In this document: positions 47,169 through 64,000 of the stretch, piece by piece
Layout of the letters: the number at the start of each line of letters is the position of its first letter
Numbering within the stretch: position 1 is the stretch's first letter
Source of the DNA: Desulfobacterales bacterium
GTDB lineage: Bacteria > Desulfobacterota > Desulfobacteria > Desulfobacterales > SpSt-501
Reading direction: 5' to 3'
Assembly: GCA_030834695.1 (NCBI GenBank)
Contig: JAUQXK010000111.1
Coordinates: forward strand, 1 to 64,000
DNA: 64,000 nucleotides
The notes under the pieces: generated by a model
The model's database searches: none
The model's input: only the letters and a program-made list of their open reading frames with translations
Told to the model about the DNA's origin: nothing
Position numbers and translations under genes: made by a program

Positions 47169-49076
47169 ATGCCATCGGTGGTCTTGTCACAGCTTCCCCT
47201 CCCCCGTCAGAACTTCGGCCGTCGGACCGGCAATATCCCGCTGGGTGCGGCCTGTCTGAAACAGGCCGCTCAGGACCTTCCCGGCGCGGAGGTCCGGATC
47301 CTGCCCCAAGACCTGGCGGCTTATCTCGGTGACGCGGCCCTGACCGAACATCTCATTGGCTTCAAATCGGGTATCTACGGGTTCACGGTTTTCAGCTGGA
47401 ACCTGCAGCGCAGTCTGTACGTTGCGGAAAAGCTGAAAACCGCCTGCGACTGCCGGATTATCTTCGGCGGCCCGGAAATCACCCCCGACAACGATCTGGC
47501 GCATTCGGAATTTGTGGATTTCTATGCTTATGGCGAGGGGGAGGCTGTTTTCCGCCGGTTGCTGCAGGATGCAGATGCCTGGTCGGCCGGCAGCGGAGCG
47601 GAAAGTTCCGCGGAATGGTTTCGGACCGCCGAGAGTCCCTATCTCAGCGGAATGATCGATCCCGCGATCGAGAATCTGATGCTGCTCGAGACCCAACGCG
47701 GCTGTCCATACCGCTGCGGGTTTTGCTTCTATAACAAATCGCGGCAAGGGCTTGTCTTCGCGGAAGCGAACAACCTGCTGCGTGCGTTGGCCTGGGCCGC
47801 TGAACACCGGATTGCGGAAGTCTACCTCCTGGACCCTTCTTTGAACGCCCGACCGCGCCTCGGGGAGCTGCTGGCAGAGATCGCCCGACGGAATACCGGC
47901 GGAGGCATCCGGCTGTTCAGCGAAATTCGGGCGGAGGCGGTCGATGACGAGCTGGCGGACCGGTTGGCGGCGGCCGGATTTTACTGGTTCGAAATCGGCC
48001 TGCAGAGCACCAACCCCAAGGCACTTAAATTGATGAACCGGCCGACTCACCTGCGGTGCTTTGTCGAGGGGGCGCAACGGCTCAAGGCGCGCGGGGTTAC
48101 GCCGAGCATCGACCTCATCATCGGCCTGCCCGGCGACGACCTGCAGGGCTTCCGGCGCAGTGTCGATTTCGTGGTCGATCACGGGCTTCAGGACGACGTG
48201 CAGATTTTTCCGCTGTCGATCCTGCCGGGCACCGACTTCCGGCGGCGCCATCGTGAATTGGGACTGCTTTTCGAAAACCATCCGCCCTATGCGGTAACCT
48301 CCAGTCGGGGGTTCAGCCCCGAGGATTTTCTCCAGGCATATGATTACGCCGAGAGCCGCCTGGATACGGTGTTCTTTCCGTTGCCCGACCTGGATGTGTC
48401 CTGGCGCGTGGATGCGGCCGGCGAGGTCGACGAAGCGGACGACCTTCGCGTAGCGATCGGAGGCCGCCGCTATGTGGCCAAACTGTTGCTGAACCGGGAG
48501 CGACCGCTCGACCAAATCCGGCGACTGGCCGGGCAGCTCACCCAGCCTTACCAACTGCTGGTGGGAGCCGGGGTCGGCGCCGCTTATTTGAAAAGCGTCC
48601 TGGCGATCGTCACCGCCGAAAACCCGTTTACACCCCTGGAAATCGTTTTTTTCGAGCCTTCCGCACCGCCCCGGACGCGCGAGCTTCTCGCGGCCGTCCA
48701 TCTGCAGCGGCCGCACTACCTGGACGGCGACCTGCGCTTCCTGTTTGCCAAGCCCGGCAACCGCGCGGCTCTGTTCACGCTGGTTTCGGTCGAGCCGGCC
48801 GGCCGGTTTCAGGGCGATATGGAGCGGCAGGTCTTTTGGTGGCGCCGGCCGTCGCTGCCGGAGATCGAAGATCTGCGGAAGTTCGAGGATCTGGACGGGA
48901 TCCTGATCGACGCACCCGTCCCGACTGCGCAGATCCTCGCCTGGCAGAATCGCCTCGGCCGGCAGGCGGCTGAAAGACATCACATCAGCTTCGCCGATGC
49001 GCGCCTGCAACGACGCTGGCTGGTGCTTGCCAGCCCGGATGAATATGTGGAGACCGTGATGCGCTGGGAAGCTTGA
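47169..49076 (+). CDS. B12-binding-domain radical SAM protein with long C-terminal region
   Basis: A 635-aa radical SAM enzyme. An N-terminal cobalamin-binding-like domain (about 5-150; CDCRIIFGGPEITPDNDLAH) is followed by the 4Fe-4S motif CxxxCxxC at Cys179, Cys183 and Cys186 (RGCPYRCGFCFYN) and the TIM-barrel core with FYWFEIGLQSTNPKALKLMN and DLIIGLPGDDLQGFRRSVDF. The last ~200 residues (after about 430) are a separate domain that I do not recognise. The B12 domain lacks an obvious DxHxxG motif. Substrate unknown; such enzymes often methylate or rearrange unactivated carbon. Confidence 0.88.
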   Translation: MPSVVLSQLPLPRQNFGRRTGNIPLGAACLKQAAQDLPGAEVRILPQDLAAYLGDAALTEHLIGFKSGIYGFTVFSWNLQRSLYVAEKLKTACDCRIIFGGPEITPDNDLAHSEFVDFYAYGEGEAVFRRLLQDADAWSAGSGAESSAEWFRTAESPYLSGMIDPAIENLMLLETQRGCPYRCGFCFYNKSRQGLVFAEANNLLRALAWAAEHRIAEVYLLDPSLNARPRLGELLAEIARRNTGGGIRLFSEIRAEAVDDELADRLAAAGFYWFEIGLQSTNPKALKLMNRPTHLRCFVEGAQRLKARGVTPSIDLIIGLPGDDLQGFRRSVDFVVDHGLQDDVQIFPLSILPGTDFRRRHRELGLLFENHPPYAVTSSRGFSPEDFLQAYDYAESRLDTVFFPLPDLDVSWRVDAAGEVDEADDLRVAIGGRRYVAKLLLNRERPLDQIRRLAGQLTQPYQLLVGAGVGAAYLKSVLAIVTAENPFTPLEIVFFEPSAPPRTRELLAAVHLQRPHYLDGDLRFLFAKPGNRAALFTLVSVEPAGRFQGDMERQVFWWRRPSLPEIEDLRKFEDLDGILIDAPVPTAQILAWQNRLGRQAAERHHISFADARLQRRWLVLASPDEYVETVMRWEA

Positions 49077-52359: not shown

Positions 52360-52770
52360 ATGAATATATGCCATCAGGTCAAAATGCGGGTACCCTTCCA
52401 CGATCTGGACCCGCTGCAGATCGTCTGGCACGGGAACTATTTCAAGTATTTCGACATTGCTCGATTCGGACTCTTCAAGCAAGCCGGTATCGATCTCTAT
52501 CAGTATCTGATTCGACAGCAGATCGTATTTCCGGTGACCCGTTTTTCCACAAAGCATATCGTGCCCCTCCGGTTCGACGACGAGTTCATCTGCACGGCGA
52601 CCGTGGTTGAAGCGGTCTATAAGATCGCCATCGCTTTTGAAATCCGACTGGCGGAAAACGGCACGGTCTGCGCTCGCGGCAAGAGCGAGCAGCTGTGTGT
52701 CAAAGTGCCTGAAATGGAAATGCAGTTCGAAATTCCGGGCGACATCAGCCGGGCGTTGGGGTTCGCGTGA
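52360..52770 (+). CDS. Hotdog acyl thioesterase (4HBT type), first cluster gene
   Basis: A 136-aa hotdog-fold thioesterase of the 4-hydroxybenzoyl-CoA type, which releases an acyl group from CoA or ACP. The catalytic Asp segment is VPFHDLDPLQIVWHGNYFKY, and the fold continues with PVTRFSTKHIVPLRFDDEFI. Family members of this kind are regular parts of aryl-polyene and related lipid clusters. GGGGAG precedes ATG 52360. Its TGA overlaps the next start (TGATG), coupling it to the DAK2-DegV gene. Confidence 0.9.
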   Translation: MNICHQVKMRVPFHDLDPLQIVWHGNYFKYFDIARFGLFKQAGIDLYQYLIRQQIVFPVTRFSTKHIVPLRFDDEFICTATVVEAVYKIAIAFEIRLAENGTVCARGKSEQLCVKVPEMEMQFEIPGDISRALGFA

Positions 52771-54500
52771 TGGACCGGCAGCTGCAACGTGCTTTCGCCG
52801 CCGGTTACGAAAGACTTTCCGCCTGGGCGGACCTCCTCGATCTGATCAACGTGTTTCCGGTTGCCGACGCGGACACGGGCAGCAACCTGAGGATCAGCCT
52901 CGCGCCCCTGCATCGGCTCGACGGCGGCACGGATGTCACCGTCAAACGGCTTCTGGCATCCGCCTCGGGCAACTCGGGGAACATCGCCTGCGGCTTTTTT
53001 ACGGCGTTTATCGCCGAGAACCCGTCGAAGGACTTTTTCCGGGCCGCCAAGGCGGGCCGGGACAGGGCCTGGCAGGCGCTGGCCGACCCGAAGCCCGGAA
53101 CCATGTTGACGGTTTTCGACGAACTGTCGGCTCACTTCGCGAACGCGACCGGCGATCCATGGGATGCGACCTATTCCGCTCTCATGGAAAAGCTCGAGCA
53201 GGCCGTCCATACCACCGCCCAAATCCTTCCGGAGCTGGAGGCGGCGGGTGTCATCGATGCCGGGGCGTTGGGAATCTACCTTTTCATGGAGGGTTTTTTC
53301 GCTCGCCTGGCCGACCGGGTTGATGAGTTCCGTCCCGTTACCGAGACGTTCCAGCGGAGGCTGCAGCTGCCGGCCGATTTCCACCCGGAACGCCAGAAGG
53401 GGTTTTGTGTCGATACGGTTCTGAAGGTCGCAGAGGGCTTCGATTCCTCGACGGGAGCGCTGGCCCAATACGGTGAAAGCCTCGTCGTCCTTCGGGAGGA
53501 CGACCGCGTCAAGATCCACCTTCACACCGAGCGCCCGGACGATGTCCGGCGGCAGCTCGGCAATCTCGGCGGCATCGTGCAATGGAGCGAGCAGGACATG
53601 ACGCGGCCGGCCGGCTCGCGGACGGATCCCCTCAAGCAGGCCGCGGTGCATATCGTGAGCGACGCCGCGGGTTCCATCACCCGCCAGGATGCCGCTCGAT
53701 GGGGGATGACCCTGCTCGACAGCTACATTGTCGTCGGCGACCGATCGTTGCCGGAAACCCTGTTCTCACCGGCCGAATTCTATGCCTTGATGCGTCAGGG
53801 CGTCAAGGTGAGCACGGCCCAGGCTTCCATTTTCGAGCGTCACCAACGCTACCAGAGCATTCTGAGCCGCTTCGGTTCTGCGCTCTATCTGTGTGTCGGC
53901 TCGGTGTACACCGGCAATTTTCAGGCGGTATCAGCCTGGAAAAAACGGAGCGACCCGGACGGCCGGATGACGGTCATTGACACCGGTCTGGCCTCCGGCC
54001 GTCTCGGTCTCGCCGTCCTGGCCACGGCCCGCCATGCCAGCGACAGCGATCATCCCGAAAGGGTGGTTCGATTCGCCGAGGCAGCCATCCGGCAGTGCGA
54101 GGAATTCATTTTCCTCGACCGGCTCCAGTATCTCGTGGCCGGCGGCCGTTTGTCCAAGACCAAGGGTTTTTTAGGCGACCTGCTGCACCTGAAGCCGATT
54201 ATCAGCCCGACCGCCCAGGGGGCGGTGAAGGCCGGGACCGCGCGAGACCGTGACGAACAGGTCGCCTTCGCGATGCAGAAGCTCGCCGAACGCCTGACGC
54301 CGGGCGCCGGCGGGCTCGTCATGCTCGAGTATTCCGACAACCGGCAGTGGGTGGAAGAAGACGTGCAGAGACTGATCCAGAGCCGCTTCCCAGACAGCGA
54401 GACCATTCTCCAACCCCTGTCGCTGACGTCCGGCGCCCACATGGGGCCGGGGACCTGGGGAGTGGCTTTCTTGCCGAAGCCGCTTTTCTTGATGGAGTAA
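52770..54500 (+). CDS. DAK2-DegV fusion, probable one-chain fatty-acid kinase
   Basis: A 576-aa fusion. Residues about 1-190 are a DAK2 (DhaL-like) kinase domain with the metal-binding Asp motif PVADADTGSN at 30-39 and AGVIDAGALGIYLFMEGFF. About 205-275 resembles the FakA middle domain (ESLVVLREDDRVKIHLHTER). About 290-570 is a DegV domain that binds a fatty acid (VHIVSDAAGSITRQDAARWG, KVSTAQAS, LVAGGRLSKTKGFLGDLLHL). In Gram-positives FakA and FakB are separate proteins that phosphorylate fatty acids; here kinase and carrier are joined, so it could activate or recycle acyl chains for the cluster (inference). Coupled to both neighbours. Confidence 0.87.
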   Translation: MDRQLQRAFAAGYERLSAWADLLDLINVFPVADADTGSNLRISLAPLHRLDGGTDVTVKRLLASASGNSGNIACGFFTAFIAENPSKDFFRAAKAGRDRAWQALADPKPGTMLTVFDELSAHFANATGDPWDATYSALMEKLEQAVHTTAQILPELEAAGVIDAGALGIYLFMEGFFARLADRVDEFRPVTETFQRRLQLPADFHPERQKGFCVDTVLKVAEGFDSSTGALAQYGESLVVLREDDRVKIHLHTERPDDVRRQLGNLGGIVQWSEQDMTRPAGSRTDPLKQAAVHIVSDAAGSITRQDAARWGMTLLDSYIVVGDRSLPETLFSPAEFYALMRQGVKVSTAQASIFERHQRYQSILSRFGSALYLCVGSVYTGNFQAVSAWKKRSDPDGRMTVIDTGLASGRLGLAVLATARHASDSDHPERVVRFAEAAIRQCEEFIFLDRLQYLVAGGRLSKTKGFLGDLLHLKPIISPTAQGAVKAGTARDRDEQVAFAMQKLAERLTPGAGGLVMLEYSDNRQWVEEDVQRLIQSRFPDSETILQPLSLTSGAHMGPGTWGVAFLPKPLFLME

Positions 54501-54526
54501 TCTCATGCTGGCCCGGAGCCCGGAGA

Positions 54527-55273
54527 ATGATTGAACCACCCCAGCCCCCGCGCGGCGGCGTTTGCCAGAACCGGTTTGCGCTGGTGATTCCGGTATTCAA
54601 CCACGAACAGACGGTGGCCGACGTGGTGCATCGGGCGATGGCCCTTGAAGTTCCGGTGGTAGTGGTGGACGACGGCTCCACCGATACGACGTTCGAACGG
54701 ATCAAGGGCATTCCGGGGATCCGGATCCTGCGCCATCCATTCAACCGCGGCAAGGGCGCGGCTCTCATGACCGGAATTGCGCACGCGGCCAAGCTGGCTG
54801 ACTGGGTGATCACGCTGGATGCGGACGGTCAGCACGACCCGGATGATGCCAAATCCCTGATGCGTGCTGTCCCCTCGGGGCCGCGGCCCATCCTGATCGG
54901 CCGGCGGACGGGCATGCAGGGGGCGGAGGTGCCTTGGACCAGCCGGTTTGGCCGTGGTTTCTCCAACTTCTGGGTGCGGGTGGCCGGCGGGCCGGCGGTA
55001 AAGGACTCTCAAAGCGGGTTCAGGGTCTATCCCCTGCCGGAATGCCTGCACTTGGATGTCAAGGCTCGACGGTTTCAATTCGAAGTCGAAATCCTGGTCA
55101 AAGCCGGGTGGAAGGGGATTCCGGTGATGGAGTCGCCCGTCCGCGTGTCCTATCGGCCCGGGACTCCGAGAATTTCGCATTTCCACCCGTTTTTCGACTT
55201 TCTGAGAAACTTCGGCACGTTCAGCCGGTTGATCACCTACCGGGTGCTGAAGCTGAAGTTCCTAATGGAATGA
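54527..55273 (+). CDS. Family 2 glycosyltransferase (dolichol-phosphate-mannose-synthase-like)
   Basis: A 248-aa GT-A enzyme. The nucleotide-sugar site has FALVIPVFNHEQTVADVVHR and VVVVDDGSTDTT; the metal-binding acidic motif is ITLDADGQHDPDD; SQSGFRVYPLPECLHLDVKA and FQFEVEILVKAGWKGIPVME follow, the latter typical of DPM1/polyprenyl-phosphate enzymes. No C-terminal transmembrane helices are seen. It would glycosylate a lipid or polyene head group. GGAG eight bases before ATG 54527; its TGA overlaps the acyltransferase start as ATGA. Confidence 0.9.
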   Translation: MIEPPQPPRGGVCQNRFALVIPVFNHEQTVADVVHRAMALEVPVVVVDDGSTDTTFERIKGIPGIRILRHPFNRGKGAALMTGIAHAAKLADWVITLDADGQHDPDDAKSLMRAVPSGPRPILIGRRTGMQGAEVPWTSRFGRGFSNFWVRVAGGPAVKDSQSGFRVYPLPECLHLDVKARRFQFEVEILVKAGWKGIPVMESPVRVSYRPGTPRISHFHPFFDFLRNFGTFSRLITYRVLKLKFLME

Positions 55274-56208
55274 TATTGCCCGCAACGCTTATGCTATCCC
55301 TGTTTTACCGCTGCATGGCGCTCACCTCCCGGATTTTCGGACCGTGGCTGTTCAGCTGCGTTGCCAAAGGCATCGCCGCCGGATATTTCCTGTCTTTTCC
55401 GCGACGGGTGGGGATCAGCAAGCGGTTTTATCAAGCGCTTTTTCCCCAACTCAGCGGAGCCTTCCATCTGCGGTGCGTCTGGAAGCAGTTCCTGAATTTT
55501 ACGTCGGTATACCTCGATCGGCTCCTGCTCAGCGAGGACGGCAAGATCACCTGCACGCATGCCGGGTGGGAACACGTGGAAGCCGCTCTCGACCGGAACA
55601 CGGGCGGGATTATCCTGATGTCGCACCTGGGCAATTGGGAGATCGCCGCCCATTTCATGCGACAACGCAGAGAGCACCTGCGACTCATCCTGTTCATGGG
55701 GATGCGCGCCAAGGCCGAAATCGAGCGTCTTCAGAAAGAGGAACTGCGACGTAAGGGGATTCGTATCCTGGCGGTCGAAAAGGATTCCGGCGCCCCGTTC
55801 GACCTTATCGAGGGGCTACAGTTCATCCAGTCGGGCGGACTGATTTCGATGACCGGCGACAAGCTATGGCATTCGAGCCAGCGGTCCGTTCCGGTCGCCT
55901 TTCTCGGGCATGAAGTCCGTCTGCCGGAGACGCCGCATCTGCTGGCCATGCTGTCCGGCGTGCCGCTGTTCATCTTTTTTTCGCGCCGCACCGGCCGCCG
56001 GCGCTACCATCTGAGCATTGCGGAGCCGATCTACGTCGCCAAGGTCGGCCGCCGTGAACGAGCCGAGGCCATCCGGCGGTCGGCGCAAGCGTATGCCGAC
56101 CTGCTGGCGCAGAACCTCGGCGAGAACCCGCTGGAATGGTACCATTTCGAAACGTTTCTCGGCCCGCGGCTGACAGGAGCCGAAACCCCGCAGCCGAATA
56201 GGTTTTGA
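55270..56208 (+). CDS. LpxL/HtrB-like acyltransferase
   Basis: A 312-aa membrane-associated lysophospholipid/lipid A acyltransferase-type enzyme. A hydrophobic N-terminus (MILPATLMLSLFYRCMALTS) is followed by the catalytic HX4E motif in ILMSHLGNWEIAAHFM and a second conserved block GGLISMTGDKLWHSSQRSVP. It would transfer an acyl chain from ACP to a hydroxyl group. The GT2-acyltransferase pair next to ACP and KS is a hallmark of aryl-polyene-type clusters (family knowledge). It starts in the ATGA overlap with the glycosyltransferase stop. Confidence 0.88.
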   Translation: MILPATLMLSLFYRCMALTSRIFGPWLFSCVAKGIAAGYFLSFPRRVGISKRFYQALFPQLSGAFHLRCVWKQFLNFTSVYLDRLLLSEDGKITCTHAGWEHVEAALDRNTGGIILMSHLGNWEIAAHFMRQRREHLRLILFMGMRAKAEIERLQKEELRRKGIRILAVEKDSGAPFDLIEGLQFIQSGGLISMTGDKLWHSSQRSVPVAFLGHEVRLPETPHLLAMLSGVPLFIFFSRRTGRRRYHLSIAEPIYVAKVGRRERAEAIRRSAQAYADLLAQNLGENPLEWYHFETFLGPRLTGAETPQPNRF

Positions 56209-56270
56209 ATTTGACCGCGCAGTGGTGTATGGTAATCGGATCATTCCAGCAAAGGTGCAGAGAAGGTTCA

Positions 56271-56573
56271 ATGGAACGCAATGCCATCATTGTCGCTATT
56301 CTCAGGATTTTCACCGAGCGGTTTGAAATCGAGAACCCCGGTCTCGACGATAACCTGAGGGACGCCTACGAATTCGACAGCATCGATGCGGTCGAGCTGC
56401 TGCACGAGATTGAGGTGCTCCTCGGTACCCGGCTCACCCGCGCCGAAAAGAAAAACGCCATGGACATCCGTACCATCCGCCAGATCGCCGACTACATCGA
56501 AGCTCTGGCGGCCGCGCGCGCGGCGGAGGGAGCCGGCGGCGCTGCCGAGCGCCTGACCTCCCAGGAGTCTTGA
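56271..56573 (+). CDS. Acyl carrier protein
   Basis: A 100-aa carrier protein. The phosphopantetheine site is Ser37 in AYEFDSIDAVELLHEIEVLL, an atypical DSID instead of DSLD. It is slightly longer than fatty-acid ACP, with an Ala-rich C-terminal tail (ALAAARAAEGAGGAAERL). It should carry the growing chain for the two ketosynthases. AAGG precedes ATG 56271. The TGA overlaps the ketosynthase start (TGATG). Confidence 0.92.
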   Translation: MERNAIIVAILRIFTERFEIENPGLDDNLRDAYEFDSIDAVELLHEIEVLLGTRLTRAEKKNAMDIRTIRQIADYIEALAAARAAEGAGGAAERLTSQES

Positions 56574-57811
56574 TGGCGCGGCGAGTGGTCATCACGGGCG
56601 CCAGTGCCATCACGCCGATCGGCCGGAGCCGGGACGAGATCGTGCGCCACCTGGTGGAAGGCATCTCCGGGGTCAAAAAGCTGCGCAATGACGGGCTGCT
56701 GACCGAACACATCCAATCCGGCGTTTACGGCACCGTCGACTACCCGATCGAATACGACTTCAAACGCAGCCACGCCAAGACTATGGGGCCGGTTTCCTTC
56801 TATGCCTGCCAGGTTTCCAGGGAAGCCCTCCAGGCAGCGGGGCTCGACCCGGCGTTCATCACCTCGGGGCGTCTCGGGGTCGCCTTCGGCTCCACCCACG
56901 GCAGTCCGTCGGCCCAACGCAACATTTACAAGACGTTTTTTACCGAACGCGAACGCGGGGTGGCGGCGATCGGCGCAGTGGACTATCTAAAGTCCATGGT
57001 CCACACCACGGCGGTGAACATCACCAAGATGTTCGGCATCACCGGCCGCGTGATCTCCTCCTCCACGGCATGCACGACGAGCAGCCAGTCGATCGGGTTC
57101 GGCTACGAAGCGGTCAAGTACGGCATGCAGGACGCCATGCTGTGCGGCGGCGCCGATGAATACGACACGACGACGGTGGCGGTGTTCGACAACCTGCTGG
57201 CGTGTTCGACGGAGTTCAACGCCACGCCCCACCTGACGCCACGGCCCTTCGACGCCGCCCGCGACGGGCTCGTCGTCGGGGAGGGGGCCGGGGCCGTCCT
57301 GCTCGAGGACTACGAGCACGCCAGGAAGCGCGGGGCCCCCATTCTCGGGGAGGTCATCGGCTTCTCCTGTACCAACAACGGCGGCGACTTGATTCTGCCG
57401 AACGTCCAGGGCATTACCCGTACGCTCAAGCTCGCCCTAGAGCAAGCGGCCATCGGCCCCGGCGCGGTGGACTTCGTCAGTGCCCATGCGACGGCAACCA
57501 AGATGGGCGACGTGGTCGAGGCCCAGGCCATCGGGGGCATTTACGGAGACGGGCCGGTGGTGGCCGGCCTGAAGAGTTACATGGGGCACACGATGGGCTC
57601 GTGCGGGGCGATCGAGGCGATCCTAACGCTCTACATGATGCAGGCCGGGTTTATCCCGCGGACCCTGAACCTGGACCACGTGGACGAACGTTGCGCGATG
57701 ATTCGTCACGCGCTGCAATTGATCGAGCGACCGGTGCGCATCGCCGCGGTTCAGAACTTTGCGTTCGGCGGGGTCAACACCTGTGTCATGCTGAAGAGAT
57801 TCGACGGGTGA
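56573..57811 (+). CDS. Beta-ketoacyl-ACP synthase, complete active site
   Basis: A 412-aa condensing enzyme of the FabF/KASII type. All catalytic residues are in place: Cys167 (SSTACTTSSQSIG), His305 (SAHATATKMGD) and His339 (YMGHTMGSCGAIEA). It should extend acyl-ACP with malonyl-ACP. Sequence around the pocket (ATATK in place of GTGT, and TTSS after Cys) is unlike housekeeping FabF, in keeping with a specialised pathway. AGGAG precedes ATG 56573. Directly coupled to the ACP gene. Confidence 0.95.
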   Translation: MARRVVITGASAITPIGRSRDEIVRHLVEGISGVKKLRNDGLLTEHIQSGVYGTVDYPIEYDFKRSHAKTMGPVSFYACQVSREALQAAGLDPAFITSGRLGVAFGSTHGSPSAQRNIYKTFFTERERGVAAIGAVDYLKSMVHTTAVNITKMFGITGRVISSSTACTTSSQSIGFGYEAVKYGMQDAMLCGGADEYDTTTVAVFDNLLACSTEFNATPHLTPRPFDAARDGLVVGEGAGAVLLEDYEHARKRGAPILGEVIGFSCTNNGGDLILPNVQGITRTLKLALEQAAIGPGAVDFVSAHATATKMGDVVEAQAIGGIYGDGPVVAGLKSYMGHTMGSCGAIEAILTLYMMQAGFIPRTLNLDHVDERCAMIRHALQLIERPVRIAAVQNFAFGGVNTCVMLKRFDG

Positions 57812-57887
57812 TGACTTCACAAGAAGCCTAATTTCGGCGTTGCGCTTCGTCCCACGCTCGCCGTCATCCAATTCCAGGCGTGAAACA

Positions 57888-58676
57888 ATGGAACGCAATA
57901 GCCCCGCTGCCGGACGCCGGAGGCTTCAGACCTTTTTCGATATGGCCATCACACTCGCGCTGTGGGCGTATTTCACGGCGGGATTCGTTTTGCTCTTTGC
58001 ACCTTTCTATCTCCTGGCCGGCATCTTTGCAAGGAATCGCGAGCAGGCCTTTCAGCAGCTTAACAGTCGGTTCTATCGGGGCTTTTTTGCCCTGGCGCGC
58101 CGATTGATGCCCGGGCACCGCTGGCAGATCCAGCCCGAGGTGAGGGCGATCCGCTCATCGGTCGTGGTCTGCAACCACCAGTCCTACTTGGACTCGATCC
58201 TGCTGATATCGCTGTATGGCCGGCACAACACCATCGTCAAGAGCCGGCTCTTCGATATCCCGCTTTTCGGAAACATGCTGCAATGGTCCGGCTATATTCC
58301 TTCCTCGGCCGAAGGGCGGTTCGCCGAGATGATGATCCGGCGGATCGAGAGCATGGATGCGTTTCTCGCGGCGGGCGGCAATCTGATCGTGTTTCCCGAG
58401 GGCACCCGCAGCCGGGACGGACGCATCGGGCCGCTGAACCCGGGGGCCTTCAAGATCGCGCGGCGCTGCCGGACGCCGATCAAGGTCCTTTACGTCACCC
58501 ACACCGATCGCATGTTCCGGCGTGGCAGGTTTGCGTTCGACACCCGGGGGCCGAACACCATCCGTCTCGAGCTGCTCGGCGAGGTCGATGCGGCCGGCGC
58601 CGACGGAAAACGGGGCCTGGTGCGAGCGATGGACCGGGTGCGGGAAATGCTCGAATCGCGGCAGATGGCAGGCTGA
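57888..58676 (+). CDS. PlsC-like 1-acylglycerol-3-phosphate acyltransferase
   Basis: A 262-aa membrane acyltransferase. An N-terminal hydrophobic segment (ALWAYFTAGFVLLFAPFYLL) anchors it; the catalytic NHX4D motif is VVCNHQSYLDSILLI and the substrate motif is IVFPEGTRSRDGRIGPLNPG. It would esterify a hydroxyl group with an acyl chain. Together with the LpxL-like gene it gives the cluster two different acyltransferases. ATG 57888 is preceded by CAGGCG; gap of 76 bp to the ketosynthase. Confidence 0.9.
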   Translation: MERNSPAAGRRRLQTFFDMAITLALWAYFTAGFVLLFAPFYLLAGIFARNREQAFQQLNSRFYRGFFALARRLMPGHRWQIQPEVRAIRSSVVVCNHQSYLDSILLISLYGRHNTIVKSRLFDIPLFGNMLQWSGYIPSSAEGRFAEMMIRRIESMDAFLAAGGNLIVFPEGTRSRDGRIGPLNPGAFKIARRCRTPIKVLYVTHTDRMFRRGRFAFDTRGPNTIRLELLGEVDAAGADGKRGLVRAMDRVREMLESRQMAG

Positions 58677-58819
58677 AGGTTGAAGGCGTTTCAAGACCAT
58701 CCGAGGATGCCCTAAGTGGCAGATTCGTATCGCGCGAGAGGTGCTATGCCTTCAGCCTTCGGTTTTCAGCCTAATCACTTTAACCGCAAAGAACTCCGAA
58801 GCACGGGTTGGTAAGCGTC

Positions 58820-60310
58820 ATGAAGATCGTTTTGATGTCCATGCCCGACGTGGCCGCGGTGATCATGCACGAGAGCGCTTTTCACATGCCGAACAACGGC
58901 ATCGCCAGCATCGGCGCCAACATCGATCCCGGACACGAGGTGTTTATCATCGATCTGATCCGCAAGCGGCGCCGGGTCCGGCGCTACGTGACGGAAACGC
59001 TGCTGAGAATCCGGCCGGATGTGGTCGGGCTCTCGGCCATGGCCTGGCAGTACCGAACCTGCACGCAGCTCGTGCGGCTGATCAAGCGGCTGCTGCCGAA
59101 CGTCAAAATCGTTCTGGGCGGCTATCACGCCACGCTGATGCATGAAGAGATCGCGGTTTCGGAGGAGGCGCCCCTGATCGACTTCATCGTACGCGGCGAA
59201 GGGGAGGAGGTCTTCCGACGACTGATCAACGCCTTGAACGGCCAGGACCGGTTTGAGGAAATCCCGTCGCTCTCCTATCACCGCGGCAACGGATTCGTCC
59301 ATAACCCTCGGGGCGCGCTTCTCGATCTATCCCAGCTCAAGTTGCCCATCCGGGACCGGCGGCGGCTGACCTGGGGCTATCACATCATGAACGACAAGGT
59401 CGAAGTGATCGAGACCTCCCGGGGATGTACCCGCACCTGCAATTTCTGCAGCATGAATCATATGTACGGCCGCACCTTCCGGTCCTTTCCGATGGAGCGG
59501 ATCCTGGCCGACATCGATGACATCTACATCAACCGCCGCACCCGCTGGATCTTCGTGGCCGACGACAACCTGGTCCTGGAGCCGGACCGGGTCCTGGCGC
59601 TTTGCGACGCCATTATCGCCCGCAGGTACCGTGGCCTGAATTTTGTCGTGCAGGCCGACTGCATCACCATGTCGCGCCACGAGGAGATGGTGCGCCGCAT
59701 GGCCCAGGCCGGTTTCAAGACCATTTTTCTCGGCATCGAAAACGTGTCCAAGAAGAACCTCAAGGTGGCGGGCAAAGGCAATATCGTCGCAGCCTCCCGC
59801 CAGGCGGTGGCTAATTGCCACAAATACGGCATCATGGTGGTGGCCGGAATGATCTTCGGTTTTCCGGACGACGACGAAGAGGACATCATCGAAAACTACC
59901 GCTTCCTCAAAGCGATCGAAGCGGACACCTCCTACTGCCAGATTCTGACGCCCTACCCGAAGACCGGCATGCGCCAGTACCTGCTGGACGAGGGTTTGGT
60001 GACCAACGCCGACGACTTCACCCGCTACAACGGCATGTGGGCCAATGTCCGGACCCGCCACCTGAGCGCGGAGGAGCTGCAATACCTGGTCTGGTACCAC
60101 CAGCAGAAGGTGATGGGATGGTGGGAGCCGTCGGAGCGGGTTCGCCGGCGGGGACCGCTCTGGACCGGGATATGGATATACGCCTTCCGGCCCGTTCTGA
60201 AAATCATCCTGGGACGCCAGCTCCGGAAATACGGCTGGCGGGGACGCTACGAGCGACATTTCCGGCGGATTCCGGAGGTGAACCGCTTCCGCGATCTGGA
60301 TCTTGCTTGA
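58820..60310 (+). CDS. B12-binding-domain radical SAM enzyme of the lipid cluster
   Basis: A 496-aa radical SAM protein. An N-terminal cobalamin-binding-like Rossmann domain (about 1-150; KIVLGGYHATLMHEEIAV) is followed by the CxxxCxxC motif at Cys203, Cys207 and Cys210 (RGCTRTCNFCSMN), then the barrel with VVQADCITMSRHEEMVRRMA and TIFLGIENVSKKNLKVAGKG. The C-terminus is basic (RRRGPLWTGIWIYAFRPVLK) and may touch membranes. It resembles the HpnJ-type and other lipid-modifying branches. In this setting it may alter the acyl chain. An imperfect inverted repeat (AGGCTGAAGG near 58670 / CCTTCAGCCT near 58750) lies in the 143-bp gap before it. Confidence 0.9.
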   Translation: MKIVLMSMPDVAAVIMHESAFHMPNNGIASIGANIDPGHEVFIIDLIRKRRRVRRYVTETLLRIRPDVVGLSAMAWQYRTCTQLVRLIKRLLPNVKIVLGGYHATLMHEEIAVSEEAPLIDFIVRGEGEEVFRRLINALNGQDRFEEIPSLSYHRGNGFVHNPRGALLDLSQLKLPIRDRRRLTWGYHIMNDKVEVIETSRGCTRTCNFCSMNHMYGRTFRSFPMERILADIDDIYINRRTRWIFVADDNLVLEPDRVLALCDAIIARRYRGLNFVVQADCITMSRHEEMVRRMAQAGFKTIFLGIENVSKKNLKVAGKGNIVAASRQAVANCHKYGIMVVAGMIFGFPDDDEEDIIENYRFLKAIEADTSYCQILTPYPKTGMRQYLLDEGLVTNADDFTRYNGMWANVRTRHLSAEELQYLVWYHQQKVMGWWEPSERVRRRGPLWTGIWIYAFRPVLKIILGRQLRKYGWRGRYERHFRRIPEVNRFRDLDLA

Positions 60311-60356
60311 GCGGCTCCAAGACCAGCGTTGCGAGGTCCCATCATCCCCGCACAGC

Positions 60357-61160
60357 TCACTCGGCAACGGGTGGAAGAATTCCGCTTTTGCTTAAAAACG
60401 CACGGATGTCCGTTGCGAGGGGAATACGGTCCGGCAGCCAGCATCGATGCCCGCACTCGTAAAGGCGAAGCGTGCCTCTGGCAGCCGTCATCGCCAGCTT
60501 CTGACCCTCCTGCCAGGGGATGACCTCGTCGGTTACGCCGTGCAAAACGAGCACCGGTCCTGGAAAGCGGCGCAGCACGCTGGCGTTGTCAAACGGGTCT
60601 CGAATCAGGAATTCCGGCATGAAGTAACGATGGGCGAAGATGCGCAGGCTCGTGAAGGTCGATTGAAGGATCAAGGCGGCCAGATGCCGCTCGCGGGCCA
60701 GCGCGCATATCGCGCCGCCGCCGAGAGAAAAACCGTAGCCGACCATCCGGTCTTGATCCACGTCCTGCCGGCCGATAATGGCATCGTAGGCGTTGACGAG
60801 CGCAGCTTGAATGGCCGGCTCGGATGGCGAACCGTCTGATCGCCCGTAGCCGGGATACTCGACTAGAAGCACCCCCAGACCCCAACGCCGAAACTCGTCG
60901 AACTCGCCCAGCCATTGATCGATGAGCTCACCGTTTCCATGACTGAAGATCAACACCGGATGCCGGTCGGCCGAACGAATCGGCGGGAGGAACCAGGCAT
61001 CGACGGTCCCCGAAGCAGTGGCCACGCGATAGGCCGTTGCATCGGGCACCCGGGAAATCGGGCTTTCTGCCGCCGGTTCGTGCTGTCGGGGGAAGGTGAA
61101 GTCGCGCTGCATCAAGTAGAAAAAGGCGGCGGCGGCGATATAGCCGAGGGTCAACAGCAT
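60357..61160 (-). CDS. Membrane-anchored alpha/beta hydrolase
   Basis: A 267-aa alpha/beta hydrolase of the BEM46/YfhR type. An N-terminal hydrophobic anchor (MLLTLGYIAAAAFFYLMQ) is followed by the fold with HPVLIFSHGNGELIDQWLGE, the nucleophile elbow GYGFSLGGGAICALA (GxSxGG), DEVIP carrying the likely Asp and ECGHRCWL with the His. It may hydrolyse an acyl ester. It is the only opposite-strand gene in the cluster, ending 46 bp after the radical SAM gene. The start at 61160 has no strong ribosome site. Confidence 0.85.
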   Translation of the reverse strand: MLLTLGYIAAAAFFYLMQRDFTFPRQHEPAAESPISRVPDATAYRVATASGTVDAWFLPPIRSADRHPVLIFSHGNGELIDQWLGEFDEFRRWGLGVLLVEYPGYGRSDGSPSEPAIQAALVNAYDAIIGRQDVDQDRMVGYGFSLGGGAICALARERHLAALILQSTFTSLRIFAHRYFMPEFLIRDPFDNASVLRRFPGPVLVLHGVTDEVIPWQEGQKLAMTAARGTLRLYECGHRCWLPDRIPLATDIRAFLSKSGILPPVAE

Positions 61161-61344
61161 CGCTGCGGATTTAACGCGTCGTTTCGCCGCTTTCAAGGTG
61201 GCATGGTCCAGGAAGGGGTTCGATTCTCGATACCAGGTATGCCATTTGGCAGACAGCGTCAAGGTCGGAGAGCCTTCCGTGCCCGTATTGACGCGCCGAA
61301 GATCGTTGACAAAAATCGAGGGACCGGGGTAGCTTGGGCGCCCT

Positions 61345-62439
61345 ATGCGGGAAGTCTTTATCGTCAAGCATGCGGTTGCCACCGTCCTCGGAGATAGCCT
61401 CCAGCGGACCTGGACTCGGCTGCTGGCCGGGCAGAGCGCTTTCGGCGGCGGTGCACCGGCGGTCCGCTCGGCCGGGCTGGCGCCGGCTCGCGGCGAAAAC
61501 CGCGTCTGCGCCGTGGCTCGCAAGGTTTTGGAGGCCGTGGCGCCCGTGCCGGCCGAGGCCGGTCTGATATGGACCGGCATCAAGGGCAACGCCGAGTTCA
61601 TCGAAGCCGGCCAGGCCGCCGACATGCCCTGGCTGGCCGAGCACTACCGGCAATGGGCGGTGACGATGCTTGGCACCGGTCGCGGCGGCTTCGAGATCAA
61701 CGCGGCCTGCGCTTCTTCCACCGTGGGAATCGCCATCGCATCGCAGAAGATCGCCCGGGGCGAATACGGCTGCGCCGTCGTTTGCGGCGGGGACGTGGTG
61801 ACCGATTTCGTGGTCCGGGGGTTTTCCGTTCTGAAGGCGCTGACCCCTGCGCGGTGCCGGCCCTTCGACGTCGCTCGGAACGGGATGTGCATCGGCGACG
61901 GCGCCGTGGCGCTGCTCCTGGCGGACGCCCGGACCGCGCGTGCCCATCGCCTCCAGCCGCTTGCGAAAGTCGCCGGGTGGGGGATCGCGAACGACGCGAA
62001 CCACATCACCGGCCCGTCGCCGGACGGGGCCGGCCTCGTCCGGGCGATCGCAGCTGCGCTGGAGATGGCCGGGGTGCGGCCGGATGAGGTGCAGGCCTTC
62101 TGCGCCCACGGAACCGGCACGGCTTACAATGACGGCATGGAACTTGCGGCGATCCAGGCGGTGTTCGGCGCACGCTGCCTGCCGGTGTTTTCGATCAAGG
62201 GGGCCATCGGCCACACGCTGGGGGCAGCCGGCGGCATCGAGGCGGCCGTATGCGTCCACGCCCTCGCCGAACGGCGGATCCCACCCACCGCGGGGCTGGA
62301 AATCCCCGAGCCCCGGGCGGCCGGCCGGGTGTCGCAGCGGGTGCAGGACTTCGGCGGCCGGAACATTCTGACAGCCAACTCCGGTTTCGGCGGGATCAAT
62401 GCCGCGCTGCTGTTATGCGTGCCGCCGGATCGATCTTAA
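61345..62439 (+). CDS. Second beta-ketoacyl-ACP synthase
   Basis: A 364-aa ketosynthase, about 45 residues shorter than usual, mostly at the N-terminus and in the loop before the active site. The catalytic set is complete: Cys122 (INAACASSTVGIAI), His255 (AHGTGTAYND) and His290 (KGAIGHTLGAAGG). It differs clearly from the first ketosynthase, so the cluster has two non-redundant condensing enzymes. The ATG at 61345 gives MREVFIVKHAVATVLG. The short chain-length-factor-like gene follows 82 bp later. Confidence 0.92.
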   Translation: MREVFIVKHAVATVLGDSLQRTWTRLLAGQSAFGGGAPAVRSAGLAPARGENRVCAVARKVLEAVAPVPAEAGLIWTGIKGNAEFIEAGQAADMPWLAEHYRQWAVTMLGTGRGGFEINAACASSTVGIAIASQKIARGEYGCAVVCGGDVVTDFVVRGFSVLKALTPARCRPFDVARNGMCIGDGAVALLLADARTARAHRLQPLAKVAGWGIANDANHITGPSPDGAGLVRAIAAALEMAGVRPDEVQAFCAHGTGTAYNDGMELAAIQAVFGARCLPVFSIKGAIGHTLGAAGGIEAAVCVHALAERRIPPTAGLEIPEPRAAGRVSQRVQDFGGRNILTANSGFGGINAALLLCVPPDRS

Positions 62440-62521
62440 ATTTCTATGCAAGAAGACGGCAATTCGGCCTGCGAAGTCGGCTCCAGCTTGTCCGGATCCG
62501 GATGGTCCAGAAGAGAAACCC

Positions 62522-63217
62522 ATGCGAATCCATGTCATCGGCGGCGGCTGGGTCACGGCCGCGGGGTGCGGACGCATCGGCGGCGGCACCCGGCTGCAAC
62601 TGACACCGGGGACTCCCGCAGTCCCGCCACCGGCTGAAATCTACGCGCATCCGCCGCAGCGCTACCGGCGGTTCGACGGCTATTGCCGGATCGGGTGCGC
62701 AGCCATCGCCCTGGCTTTGCGGGATGCCGGAATGGACGGTGCTCAGGCCGCACGTCCCGTCGGGGTCATCGCCTCCACCCGCTACGGGTGCTTCGATACG
62801 GACCTCGCATTCCAGGCGACCGCCCTGCAAGACAACAGCATCTATGCGAGCCCGGGACTCTTCGCCTACACGCTGCCCGGCATCGTGCTCGCCGAGGCGG
62901 CCATCCTGTTCCGGCTGACCGGCCCGACCTTCACGGTCGGCGACCCCGCCGCGCAGCGAGGCCGACGCGCCATTCAGGTCGGGGTCGACCTGCTGGTATC
63001 GGGGGCCTGTCCGGTCGTTCTTGCCGGCTGGATCGACGCCGACAGCCGGCGCCTGCGACGCCGGGCGGAGGATGACGACGGGCTGCGCGGCGCGGTATTC
63101 GTCGTGCTTTCCGCCGGGGATACGCCGAAAATGATCCGCGAGATCACGCTGCAGGGCACGGAGCTGATCCTGGAGTCCGGGGAACGGGTCCGGTCGATTT
63201 TCGATGTGGCAGGCTGA
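62522..63217 (+). CDS. Ketosynthase-like protein lacking catalytic Cys (chain-length-factor-like)
   Basis: A 231-aa protein resembling the N-terminal half of a ketosynthase: RIHVIGGGWVTAAGCGRIGG, VGVIASTRYGCFDTDLAFQA, and GPTFTVGDPAAQRGRRAIQV where a ketosynthase would have the TACSS nucleophile region. The Cys is replaced (Ala by my alignment), and the C-terminal half with the two His is missing. Such Cys-less partners (CLF) form heterodimers with an active ketosynthase, which here would be the gene just upstream (inference). AAGAGA precedes ATG 62522. Confidence 0.8.
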   Translation: MRIHVIGGGWVTAAGCGRIGGGTRLQLTPGTPAVPPPAEIYAHPPQRYRRFDGYCRIGCAAIALALRDAGMDGAQAARPVGVIASTRYGCFDTDLAFQATALQDNSIYASPGLFAYTLPGIVLAEAAILFRLTGPTFTVGDPAAQRGRRAIQVGVDLLVSGACPVVLAGWIDADSRRLRRRAEDDDGLRGAVFVVLSAGDTPKMIREITLQGTELILESGERVRSIFDVAG

Positions 63218-63228
63218 GCGGTCCCTTT

Positions 63229-64000
63229 TCAAGCCTCATTGGAATCAACCGGTCTTCCGAACGCGGCCCGGGCCAACTCGCGGTTGCGCGGTCGAAAGGT
63301 GCCGTCGGCCATCTCCTTCTGGACCACCTGCTGGAAGAGCTTGAACATCTTGATGGCCTGGGTCTCGTCCGTATAGAAGGCGGTCCAGGCGTAATCCAGA
63401 AGCTCCTGCAGCCGTTCGGGCGCCATGCGGCGCGGCGTGTAGACGACCTTGTCAGCCGAATAGTCGTTCCAGTCATAGGAGAAAATCCGGCCGGCGCGAT
63501 TCAAGTCCTCCCAGGCCTGGGTATGTGGGAAGGGGGTCAGGACGGTGAACTCCGCGAGGTCGAGCTCGATCTCAAGCAGGAAATCGACCAGCCGGCGGAT
63601 GGAGTCTTCCGTGTGCTCGTCCAGGCCGAGCAGGATGGTGCCCTCCACGCCGATTCCGTGGTCGTGGTAGCGCTTGATCCGTTCCCGGATGTAATCCGAG
63701 GTATCGAATACGGCCTGGTAGACGTACCAGGCGCCGGCGCGGGCCGCGAGATCCAGGACCTCGGGCTTGTCCTCGATGGGGTGGCTGATCCATTTCTTCT
63801 TCAGCGGGATCATCTCGCGGAAGAGATCCAGCTCCCACTGGGTGTCCTGCGCGAGGGAGTTGTCCACGATGAAAAGGCGGTTGTTCTCGATTCCGGCCAT
63901 TTCGGCGATCGCCCGGTCGATCGGCCGGGGGCGGAATTTTCTACCCCCCAGGTAGGCCACGGCACAGGGGTAGCAGTTGTACCGGCAGCCCCGGGAGGCA
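63229..64000 (-). CDS. Radical SAM protein (N-terminus cut by window edge)
   Basis: The C-terminal 257 residues of a radical SAM enzyme; the frame stays open to base 64000. The 4Fe-4S motif is visible right at the edge as RGCRYNCYPCAV. Downstream come FIVDNSLAQDTQWELDLFRE, DTSDYIRERIKRYHDHGIGV, EGTILLGLDEHTEDSIRRLV and LAEFTVLTPFPHTQAWEDLN, typical of B12-domain radical SAM proteins such as HpnP/HpnJ relatives. An N-terminal cobalamin domain probably lies outside. It is convergent with the chain-length-factor-like gene, 11 bp away. Confidence 0.9.
   Translation of the reverse strand, partial: ASRGCRYNCYPCAVAYLGGRKFRPRPIDRAIAEMAGIENNRLFIVDNSLAQDTQWELDLFREMIPLKKKWISHPIEDKPEVLDLAARAGAWYVYQAVFDTSDYIRERIKRYHDHGIGVEGTILLGLDEHTEDSIRRLVDFLLEIELDLAEFTVLTPFPHTQAWEDLNRAGRIFSYDWNDYSADKVVYTPRRMAPERLQELLDYAWTAFYTDETQAIKMFKLFQQVVQKEMADGTFRPRNRELARAAFGRPVDSNEA

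Follow-up and report, generated by a model that had tools for sequence, protein, structure and literature searches.

A probable aryl-polyene-class gene cluster with a dialkylresorcinol branch, six radical-SAM enzymes and a FakA-FakB-like fusion in a Desulfobacterales bacterium

Gene content and extent of the cluster

The window analyzed here is a stretch of 64,000 nucleotides from a Desulfobacterales bacterium, corresponding to bases 1-64000 of contig C46 (104,138 bases) in a 5.65-Mb genome (G000), with one numbering for contig and window. From position 52360 on lies a run of genes that a first-pass annotation had described as a lipid or polyene assembly cluster with ketosynthases (KS), acyltransferases and radical S-adenosylmethionine (radical-SAM) enzymes, and Pfam searches placed every named gene type where it had been put, the KS-like protein having Ala for Cys. 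The cluster is approximately 50 kb long, crosses the window end and reaches ~102,700 on the same contig, with the window holding its left quarter (Table 1). Past 64 kb we found the ketoreductase, dehydratases, AMP-ligase, LolA and MMPL exporter that had been anticipated there; the aromatic ammonia-lyase (HAL), the AMP-ligase and the DarB-, DarG- and DarH-type proteins, all outside the window, point to a flexirubin-type aryl polyene and a dialkylresorcinol (DAR). Taken together, we consider it fairly likely that the region is the left part of an aryl-polyene-class cluster with a DAR (flexirubin-type) branch, adapted to anaerobes. New in comparison with textbook polyene clusters are six radical-SAM enzymes, of which rSAM1, rSAM2, rSAM3 and rSAM6 contain a B12 domain, and a one-piece FakA-FakB-like fusion (DAK2-DegV), both of which are conserved.

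The aryl-polyene frame was evaluated with phmmer (E < 1e-3, search size 5000), the queries being 19 ape-region proteins from E. coli O157:H7 Sakai and the target the cluster set; ape letters were assigned by gene order, in part from PMC8253772. Homologues were found for 12 of the 19 proteins, which bears out the lipid or polyene assignment and its aryl-polyene frame. ApeR (ECs4341) matched KS1 (297 bits), ApeQ matched FabG (208 bits), ApeO matched KS7 (188 bits), ApeK (ECs4334) matched thioesterase TE1 (60 bits), ApeD (ECs4327) the PlsC-type acyltransferase (54 bits), ApeM the MMPL exporter (50 bits), ApeP (ECs4339) and ApeI the dehydratases named after them (34 and 26 bits) and ApeL LolA (18 bits). 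ApeJ (ECs4333) corresponded to two proteins, the family 2 glycosyltransferase (GT2; 96 bits) and the LpxL-type acyltransferase (51 bits), and both E. coli acyl carrier proteins (ACPs) matched ACP4, the first with 58 bits and the second with 20. Of the parts expected of an aryl-polyene cluster, the following are present: a ketoreductase with ApeI- and ApeP-type dehydratases and four ACPs; the GT2 and LpxL proteins, the PlsC type and a thioesterase; an ApeO-type KS (KS7) with a Cys-less partner (KS6); and an MMPL exporter with LolA and a LolB-like lipoprotein. The dehydratases score above the cut-offs of PF22818 and PF07977 and below that of PF22817 (ApeP; 22.3 vs. 27). We read the 64544-65206 protein as a putative LolB-like lipoprotein because its predicted model (predicted local distance difference test score 91.7) has LolA- and LolB-type folds as best PDB matches and its Cys17 is invariant in 30 aligned sequences.

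In a tree of 21 ketosynthases, KS1 clustered with ApeR (support 100/100), KS7, KS5 and a fused KS of cultured isolates grouped with ApeO (98/96), and KS3 and KS4 formed one group with their Desulforhopalus counterparts (100/100), all active-site residues being kept. KS2 joined a Kuenenia-like KS weakly (80/84, long branches), and its best NCBIfam model, AmcF, reached 201 bits, below the cut-off of 325. In KS6, which adjoins KS7, Glu replaces Cys and both His are gone. A role of KS3 as a chain-length factor was ruled out, as Cys, His, Lys and His are all kept. In the cultured species the ApeO-type KS is fused to a Cys-less partner (~720 amino acids; L198:3936-6092 and the L189 and L201-L202 regions) and stands beside ACP2 and rSAM3, with Asp replacing Cys in the second half of the two proteins checked; unlike this fused form, KS7 and KS6 of the window genome are unfused and lie ~30 kb from ACP2/rSAM3.

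The DAR branch is recognizable at family level. The DarB-type ketosynthase III (KSIII) exceeds the StlD/DarB family cut-off (508 vs. 450), has StlD as its best PDB match, and falls below the narrower resorcinol_DarB model (429 vs. 550); DarH exceeds its equivalog cut-off (452 vs. 300), and the DarG-type protein passes the DarG family model (133.5 vs. 70) while remaining below flexirubin DarG (125.5 vs. 170). On the side of the aryl starter, the cluster has a HAL-family enzyme with an ASG motif and an AMP-binding enzyme, the E. coli protein at the place of ApeH being without a match. DarB was present in 7 of 58 genomes (own and 57 relatives), all of which also carry rSAM5 (7 of 13 rSAM5-positive vs. 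0 of 45 rSAM5-negative genomes; p 5.7e-6), and the DAR set appears to be an optional branch accompanying this cluster. In the Azoarcus dar set darA is the neighbor of darB, according to the accessible part of PMC3949708; here rSAM6 adjoins DarB, in our genome as in G002, Desulforhopalus, D. japonicum and Desulfofustis, and we hypothesize that rSAM6 replaces DarA. NF053538, an accession guessed for DarA, turned out to be another family. A tryptophanase-type enzyme adjoins HAL and scores 590 vs. 285 for the tryptophanase subfamily; it had no match at E 1e-15 in 80 fetched rSAM5 loci, and both it and HAL would use up aromatic amino acid.

Among the radical-SAM enzymes, rSAM1 has BchE as best NCBIfam model (184.5 bits, below the cut-off of 481), and neither rSAM1 nor rSAM2 is above the cut-off in any of the listed NCBIfam radical-SAM models. 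rSAM2 is above the cut-off of PF02310 and below that of PF04055 (24.4 vs. 29.5), has the CxxxCxxC motif, and is 80% identical in G002 and 74-78% identical in five genomes of other families. rSAM3 exceeds the cut-off of TIGR04072 (rSAM_ladder_B12; 373.5 vs. 360), the B12 radical-SAM type of ladderane clusters. Methylation, anaerobic oxidation and ring chemistry are all candidate reactions for these enzymes.

The arrangement of the window genes is not due to chance, since gene order is kept in genomes of several families. The genes had been called mostly coupled by start/stop overlaps; with start codons as called here, such overlaps are real at two of the seven junctions in 52360-60310 (TE1/DAK2-DegV and ACP/KS, both TGATG), which makes the word 'mostly' too strong, the other five having gaps of 17, 26, 62, 76 and 143 bases. 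The alpha/beta hydrolase is probably a lineage-specific insertion outside the system, because in the same-genus genome G002 rSAM1 and KS2 are adjacent without it, and KS-like1 is likely a truncated chain-length-factor-type partner of KS2. Contig genes were called with a codon-usage script and 50 C46 proteins were scanned against Pfam. A search of viral contigs gave no match. About 3.3 kb before the left end of the cluster lies another B12 radical-SAM protein (47169-49076, plus strand, 635 amino acids). G002 has a homologue (66%) on the same side, and the mapped stretches of the other 11 relatives showed none.

Table 1. Genes of the cluster and its right-hand surroundings on contig C46.
Feature	Position	Strand	Remarks
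TE1, 4HBT-type thioesterase, ApeK-like	52360-52770	+	PF13279/PF03061; stop overlaps next start
DAK2-FakA_M-DegV fusion, predicted one-piece FakA+FakB-like acyl kinase	52770-54500	+	PF02734, PF21645, PF02645
GT2 glycosyltransferase	54527-55273	+	PF00535; matches one part of ApeJ
LpxL-type acyltransferase	55291-56208	+	PF03279; matches another part of ApeJ
ACP1	56271-56573	+	PF00550; DSI serine motif
KS1, ApeR-type ketosynthase	56573-57811	+	PF00109/PF02801; Cys-His-Lys-His
PlsC-type acyltransferase, ApeD-like	57888-58676	+	PF01553
rSAM1, B12 radical SAM	58820-60310	+	PF02310 + PF04055; CxxxCxxC at 203; nearest BchE/HpnR-type models
Alpha/beta hydrolase	60357-61262	-	PF00561
KS2, ketosynthase	61345-62439	+	PF02801, PF00109; Cys-His-Lys-His by active-site columns
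KS-like1, short	62522-63217	+	PF00109 part match; Ala in active-site Cys column
rSAM2, B12 radical SAM, 424 amino acids	63229-64503	-	PF02310; CxxxCxxC at 173; runs past window end
Lipoprotein	64544-65206	-	no Pfam hit
LolA	65203-65823	-	
FabG	65886-66620	-	
ApeP-like dehydratase	66659-67108	-	
ACP2	67441-67707	+	
rSAM3, B12 radical SAM	67814-69163	+	
ApeI-like dehydratase	69270-69644	+	
ACP3	69647-69937	+	
rSAM4, radical SAM	70008-71048	+	paired with rSAM5
rSAM5, radical SAM	71079-72059	+	paired with rSAM4
KS3	72108-73358	+	
KS4	73368-74633	+	
Thioesterase TE2	74635-75114	+	
Dehydratase-phosphopantetheinyl transferase (DH-PPT)	75093-76637	+	
Esterase	76664-77650	+	
Protein	77679-78107	-	no Pfam hit
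GT25	78131-78958	+	
MMPL exporter fused to methyltransferase (MMPL-MT)	78966-82019	+	
Polysaccharide deacetylase	82019-82933	+	
PEMT	82940-83485	+	
Gene	83494-84777	-	outside Pfam scan
PagL	84837-85445	-	
DUF4410	85733-86302	+	
ABC transporter	86315-88413	-	
rSAM6, B12 radical SAM	88748-90046	+	
DarB-type KSIII	90059-91204	+	
KS-like	91357-92364	-	
KS5	92361-93554	-	
ACP4	93551-93805	-	
DarH	93849-94865	-	
DarG-type	94852-95280	-	
Tryptophanase/tyrosine-phenol-lyase-type enzyme	95628-97076	-	L005:11628-13076, minus strand
Aromatic ammonia-lyase (HAL)	97131-98681	-	
AMP-ligase	98704-100224	-	
KS6	100242-101465	-	
KS7	101458-102705	-	
FMN-reductase/SCP2 protein	102979-103977	-	near contig end; left outside cluster assignment

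Conservation of the fusion and the radical-SAM enzymes

The fusion unites the DAK2, FakA middle and DegV domains of FakAB in one polypeptide, and its PDB matches comprise both FakA/kinase chains and DegV/FakB chains. Nine residues (D33, D35, N39, H250, H252, T349, S353, R460 and H557) are invariant in 10 aligned DAK2-DegV sequences, own included, and we take these to be the nucleotide/metal and fatty-acid/phosphate sites of FakA and FakB. A search of the 58 genomes gave a match at E <= 0.001 in 21 and both domains in 13, own included; of the 12 relatives with the fusion, 10 have it grouped with TE1, GT2 and LpxL, G043 and G049 being the exceptions. The frame is split in two in G014 (L045) and carries one in-frame stop in G022 (L031) and G049 (L044), through either assembly error or decay.

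Across the phylum, 28 of 395 genomes, own included, had rSAM5, with identities of 70-81% in the others. In the set of 58 genomes, 12 carried both DAK2-DegV and rSAM5, one DAK2-DegV alone (G056), one rSAM5 alone (G028) and 44 neither, for a total of 13 with rSAM5 (Fisher p 1.9e-10, ancestry ignored). On this co-occurrence we reject the reading of DAK2-DegV or the radical-SAM genes as chance neighbors, and the fatty-acid-kinase-like protein, whose combination with the other genes was unfamiliar in the first-pass annotation, proves to be a conserved member of the cluster.

Scanning named genomes with an rSAM5 alignment gave 290 relatives, the best 80 loci of which were used; these are mostly labeled delta-proteobacteria or Desulfo- groups. 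Gene counts refer to the 36 full-length loci, the 44 shorter ones being left out: ApeI, ACP3, rSAM4 and rSAM5 were present in 36/36, KS3 and KS4 in 35 each, TE2 in 34, DH-PPT in 33, rSAM3 and ACP2 in 29, FabG and ApeP in 26, LolA in 25, rSAM2 in 22, and MMPL-MT and the deacetylase in 18. DAK2-DegV was carried by 17 of 18 genomes picked from these 80 rSAM5 loci (16 in one frame, split in two in G462), the single genome without it being a metagenome-assembled genome (MAG) labeled Planctomycetota. Cultured holders of rSAM5 include Desulfosarcina widdelii, Desulfatitalea alkaliphila, Desulfogranum japonicum, D. mediterraneum, Desulfofustis glycolicus and Desulforhopalus sp.; we presume that the holders of the cluster live anaerobically. 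In Desulfosarcina widdelii rSAM5 and DAK2-DegV are ~1.2 Mb apart and both are kept, the latter with its whole block. Four cultured species (Desulforhopalus sp. IMCC35007, D. japonicum DSM 18378, Desulfofustis glycolicus DSM 9705 and D. alkaliphila), which we take to be sulfate reducers, carry the core in ~57-60 kb with both blocks close. The DarB-rSAM6 pair and DarH lie inside the region in the first three of these, and DarH is on another contig in D. alkaliphila. An AMP-ligase-type gene adjoins DAK2-DegV in Desulforhopalus (confirmed by Pfam) and Desulfofustis, a frame of similar length does so in D. japonicum, and in D. alkaliphila an AMP-ligase-type gene stands elsewhere in the region.

Six MAGs labeled Spirochaetes (L095, L096, L101, L118, L134 and L138) also carry rSAM5, at 79-82% identity, and DAK2-DegV was present in all five of the Spirochaetes-labeled rSAM5 MAGs tested, so that the cluster may have been transferred between phyla.

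Proposed pathway and competing explanations

The cluster appears to be equipped for producing an envelope lipid of the aryl-polyene (flexirubin-like) type, and its gene families suggest a route. The aromatic-amino-acid ammonia-lyase and the AMP-ligase would supply and activate an aryl starter, and, by homology to ape, the conjugated chain would come from the ApeO-like KS7 with the Cys-less KS6, the ApeR-like KS1 and FabG, with the ApeI- and ApeP-like dehydratases and four ACPs also serving in chain assembly. The six radical-SAM enzymes, four of them of the B12 type, would tailor the chain or the rings without oxygen. Judging from family membership, DarB would give a resorcinol partner which DarH would esterify to the polyene. 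We hypothesize that TE1 releases the acyl acid, that DAK2-DegV re-activates it as an acyl phosphate, and that the LpxL and PlsC acyltransferases then move the acyl group to a lipid anchor glycosylated by GT2; the MMPL exporter, LolA and the LolA/LolB-fold lipoprotein would bring the product to the outer membrane.

A ladderane-type link, which had been drawn from the radical-SAM and KS genes, holds in so far as rSAM3 passes TIGR04072 and a Kuenenia-like locus shares parts with the cluster. The available part of Rattray 2009 (PMC2649909) lists ladderane candidate genes of Kuenenia, describes them as syntenic with genes of Desulfotalea psychrophila and puts forward polyunsaturated chains as the product in the latter. 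The gene order of L231, a locus in G552, fits kuste3335-3352 as given in the accessible parts of PMC2649909 and PMC4790861, and in its KS-like protein the places described as Ser163, Asp328 and Asn333 of Kuste3348 (PMC2649909) are likewise Ser, Asp and Asn; L231 would thus represent the Kuenenia candidate ladderane locus. It shares some ten parts with our cluster, several of them weakly. These comprise two pairs of KS and KS-like proteins, a TIGR04072 radical SAM (32% identical to rSAM3), FabG (43%), an AMP-binding enzyme that corresponds at family level alone and, by partial or weak matches, MMPL, GT2 and deacetylase. These same parts make up the likeness to the Kuenenia and Desulfotalea psychrophila loci, that to Desulfotalea resting on the published description and our own comparison being with L231. 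L231 also has an amino-oxidase/phytoene-desaturase-type gene not found in the window cluster. All in all, the ladderane resemblance is one of kinship of parts, not of membership; separate methyltransferases are a further difference on the Kuenenia side.

TIGR04072 is probably not ladderane-specific, since it is above its cut-off in 21 of 392 genomes (58 at 1e-60) in the phylum of G455, a MAG labeled Planctomycetota. In that phylum, four distant rSAM5 relatives had no other cluster gene within the surrounding 14-20 kb. Another locus there, L236, has an rSAM2-like gene (57%) adjoining an rSAM3-like gene (38%), together with ACP, GT2-like and LolA-like genes, and is possibly a further branch of the system. 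HZS_alpha (PF18582) was dropped as an anammox marker, as it matched three of five genomes, two of which had 11 and 12 copies. In the available parts of the respective papers, antiSMASH 'ladderane' calls in Desulfobacterota are described as being of unknown function (PMC9902471), and expression of ladderane candidate genes in E. coli yielded no detected ladderanes, with two radical-SAM proteins undetected (PMC4790861).

It is unlikely, in our judgment, that the region is instead a ladderane-type or polyunsaturated-hydrocarbon cluster, in which a plain acyl chain would be desaturated or cyclised by the radical-SAM enzymes, in line with proposals for anammox bacteria, and the right-hand aryl genes would form a separate neighboring cluster. 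The TIGR04072 score of rSAM3, the partial overlap with L231, whose SPASM radical SAM is 46% identical to the Desulforhopalus one, and the published synteny with its polyunsaturated hydrocarbons would fit such a cluster, as would the isolates without HAL in ~60 kb, one of which has a weak amino-oxidase-type gene adjoining rSAM3. But no phytoene-desaturase-type gene was found among the 50 C46 proteins scanned, and G000 has no full-length homologue of the Kuste3343-type SPASM radical SAM (best E 9.9e-15 over 89 residues); DAK2-DegV, rSAM1, rSAM2 and rSAM4 are the best hit of no L231 open frame, the match of rSAM5 spans 58 residues only, and DarB occurs only alongside rSAM5 among the 58 genomes. 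That the left, middle and DAR/HAL blocks are two or three independent clusters which adjoin on the contig by chance we regard as very unlikely: the blocks are indeed apart in D. widdelii and on different contigs in several MAGs, and some rSAM5 genomes have no DarB or DarH, yet the co-occurrence survives loss of linkage, and Desulforhopalus, D. japonicum and Desulfofustis have the left, middle and DAR genes in one contiguous run. A salvage role for the fusion is a doubtful alternative for the attachment step; here TE1 would strip misprimed acyl-ACP, and DAK2-DegV would return the released fatty acid to normal phospholipid synthesis and activate no polyene. The FakAB system of Gram-positive bacteria phosphorylates free fatty acids for PlsX/PlsY, and TE1 adjoins DAK2-DegV; moreover, a proofreading role has been proposed for the thioesterase ApeK (PMC8253772, available part). 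However, the fusion is tied to the cluster, whereas a general salvage kinase would be expected more widely, and its gene is flanked by the release thioesterase on one side and the attachment genes on the other.

The aryl-polyene reading itself has several observations against it. Seven of the 19 E. coli proteins (at the places of ApeA, B, C, G, H, N and AcpT) had no phmmer match, DAK2-DegV scores only 91 bits with the FakA equivalog model, whose cut-off is 975, and Desulfotalea yielded polyunsaturated hydrocarbons and no pigments according to the available part of Rattray 2009 (PMC2649909). HAL is above no NCBIfam cut-off, reaching 307 vs. 700 for the FlxA tyrosine ammonia-lyase equivalog found in flexirubin clusters, and alignments do not decide whether its substrate is tyrosine or another. 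It was detected in only 3 of the 80 fetched loci (E 1e-15) and was missing from all four isolate regions (~60 kb), and therefore the claim of an aryl starter does not extend to the whole family; with homologues (33-41%) adjoining DAK2-DegV in G048, G030 and the stretch L193 of a Spirochaetes MAG, the ammonia-lyase is recurrent in several lineages yet not universal. DarB accompanies rSAM5 in only 7 of 13 genomes, and of 20 genomes tested for DarH, our own among them, 12 had a protein above the cut-off. Finally, many genomes are MAGs, G461 and G462 share contig places with G020 and G014 and so are not independent, and the Fisher values overstate independence because of shared ancestry, this duplication and the counting of our own genome.

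A broader proposal, rather unlikely as a whole but informative if true, is that the sulfate-reducer and anammox clusters are branches of one anaerobic class with a shared radical-SAM step on an ACP-bound polyene (by enzymes of the TIGR04072 type, joined in isolates by those of the SPASM type), that DAK2-DegV provides a new acyl-phosphate route, and that rSAM6 replaces DarA. Cultivable sulfate reducers would then be a surrogate for ladderane chemistry, and DAK2-DegV would define a new acyl-phosphate attachment route for polyketide-type lipids. Even without it, kinship with the anammox candidate genes offers cultured organisms for the study of radical-SAM steps. In the accessible parts of the literature, aryl polyenes shield E. 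coli from oxidative stress (PMC8253772) and xanthomonadins shield Xanthomonas from photo-oxidation (PMC3949708); a conserved aryl-polyene-class cluster in anaerobes, rich in radical-SAM enzymes and with an acyl kinase, prompts the question of what its product does in them and by which route polyene lipids could be modified and fixed to an anchor in the absence of oxygen. Even for E. coli, the way in which the lipid is attached is no more than a proposal (PMC8253772, available part), and the DAK2-DegV kinase is a testable proposal for it.

Relation to known systems

No described cluster with a known product matching this gene set was found in the full-text literature, whose coverage leaves out most subscription papers, and searches there for an aryl polyene with a fatty acid kinase, or for arylpolyene with ladderane, resorcinol and Desulfo, found none. 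As far as the available part of PMC3992019 tells, the flexirubin clusters (Chitinophaga pinensis flx and dar; Flavobacterium johnsoniae) resemble ours in an ammonia-lyase, an acyl-CoA ligase, several KS, DarB, a reductase, dehydratases, a thioesterase, LolA, a glycosyltransferase, a PlsC-type acyltransferase, a polysaccharide deacetylase and an exporter. They differ in that here six radical-SAM enzymes and DAK2-DegV are present ('radical SAM' and 'kinase' being absent from the main text of that paper), HAL is far below the FlxA cut-off, and DarB adjoins rSAM6 and not an identified DarA. The arcuflavin cluster of Azoarcus sp. BH72, a xanthomonadin-dialkylresorcinol hybrid (PMC3949708, available part), shares KS, KS-like, dehydratase, ketoreductase, glycosyltransferase, acyltransferase, deacetylase, exporter, LolA, AMP-ligase and ACP genes as well as a dar set with ABC transporter, BtrH-like protein, ACP and KS; its starter enzyme is a chorismatase (XanB2 type), and an ammonia-lyase, radical SAM and DAK2-DegV are not in its gene table.

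The E. coli ape cluster has homologues here of ApeR, O, Q, J (as two proteins), K, D, M, I, P, L and ACP, whereas radical SAM, DAK2-DegV, ammonia-lyase and DAR proteins are not annotated among its 19 proteins compared. FakA and FakB share with the fusion the DAK2, FakA middle and DegV domains and the putative catalytic and binding residues; they are separate subunits, whereas the protein described here is a single polypeptide and is tied to a polyene-type cluster.

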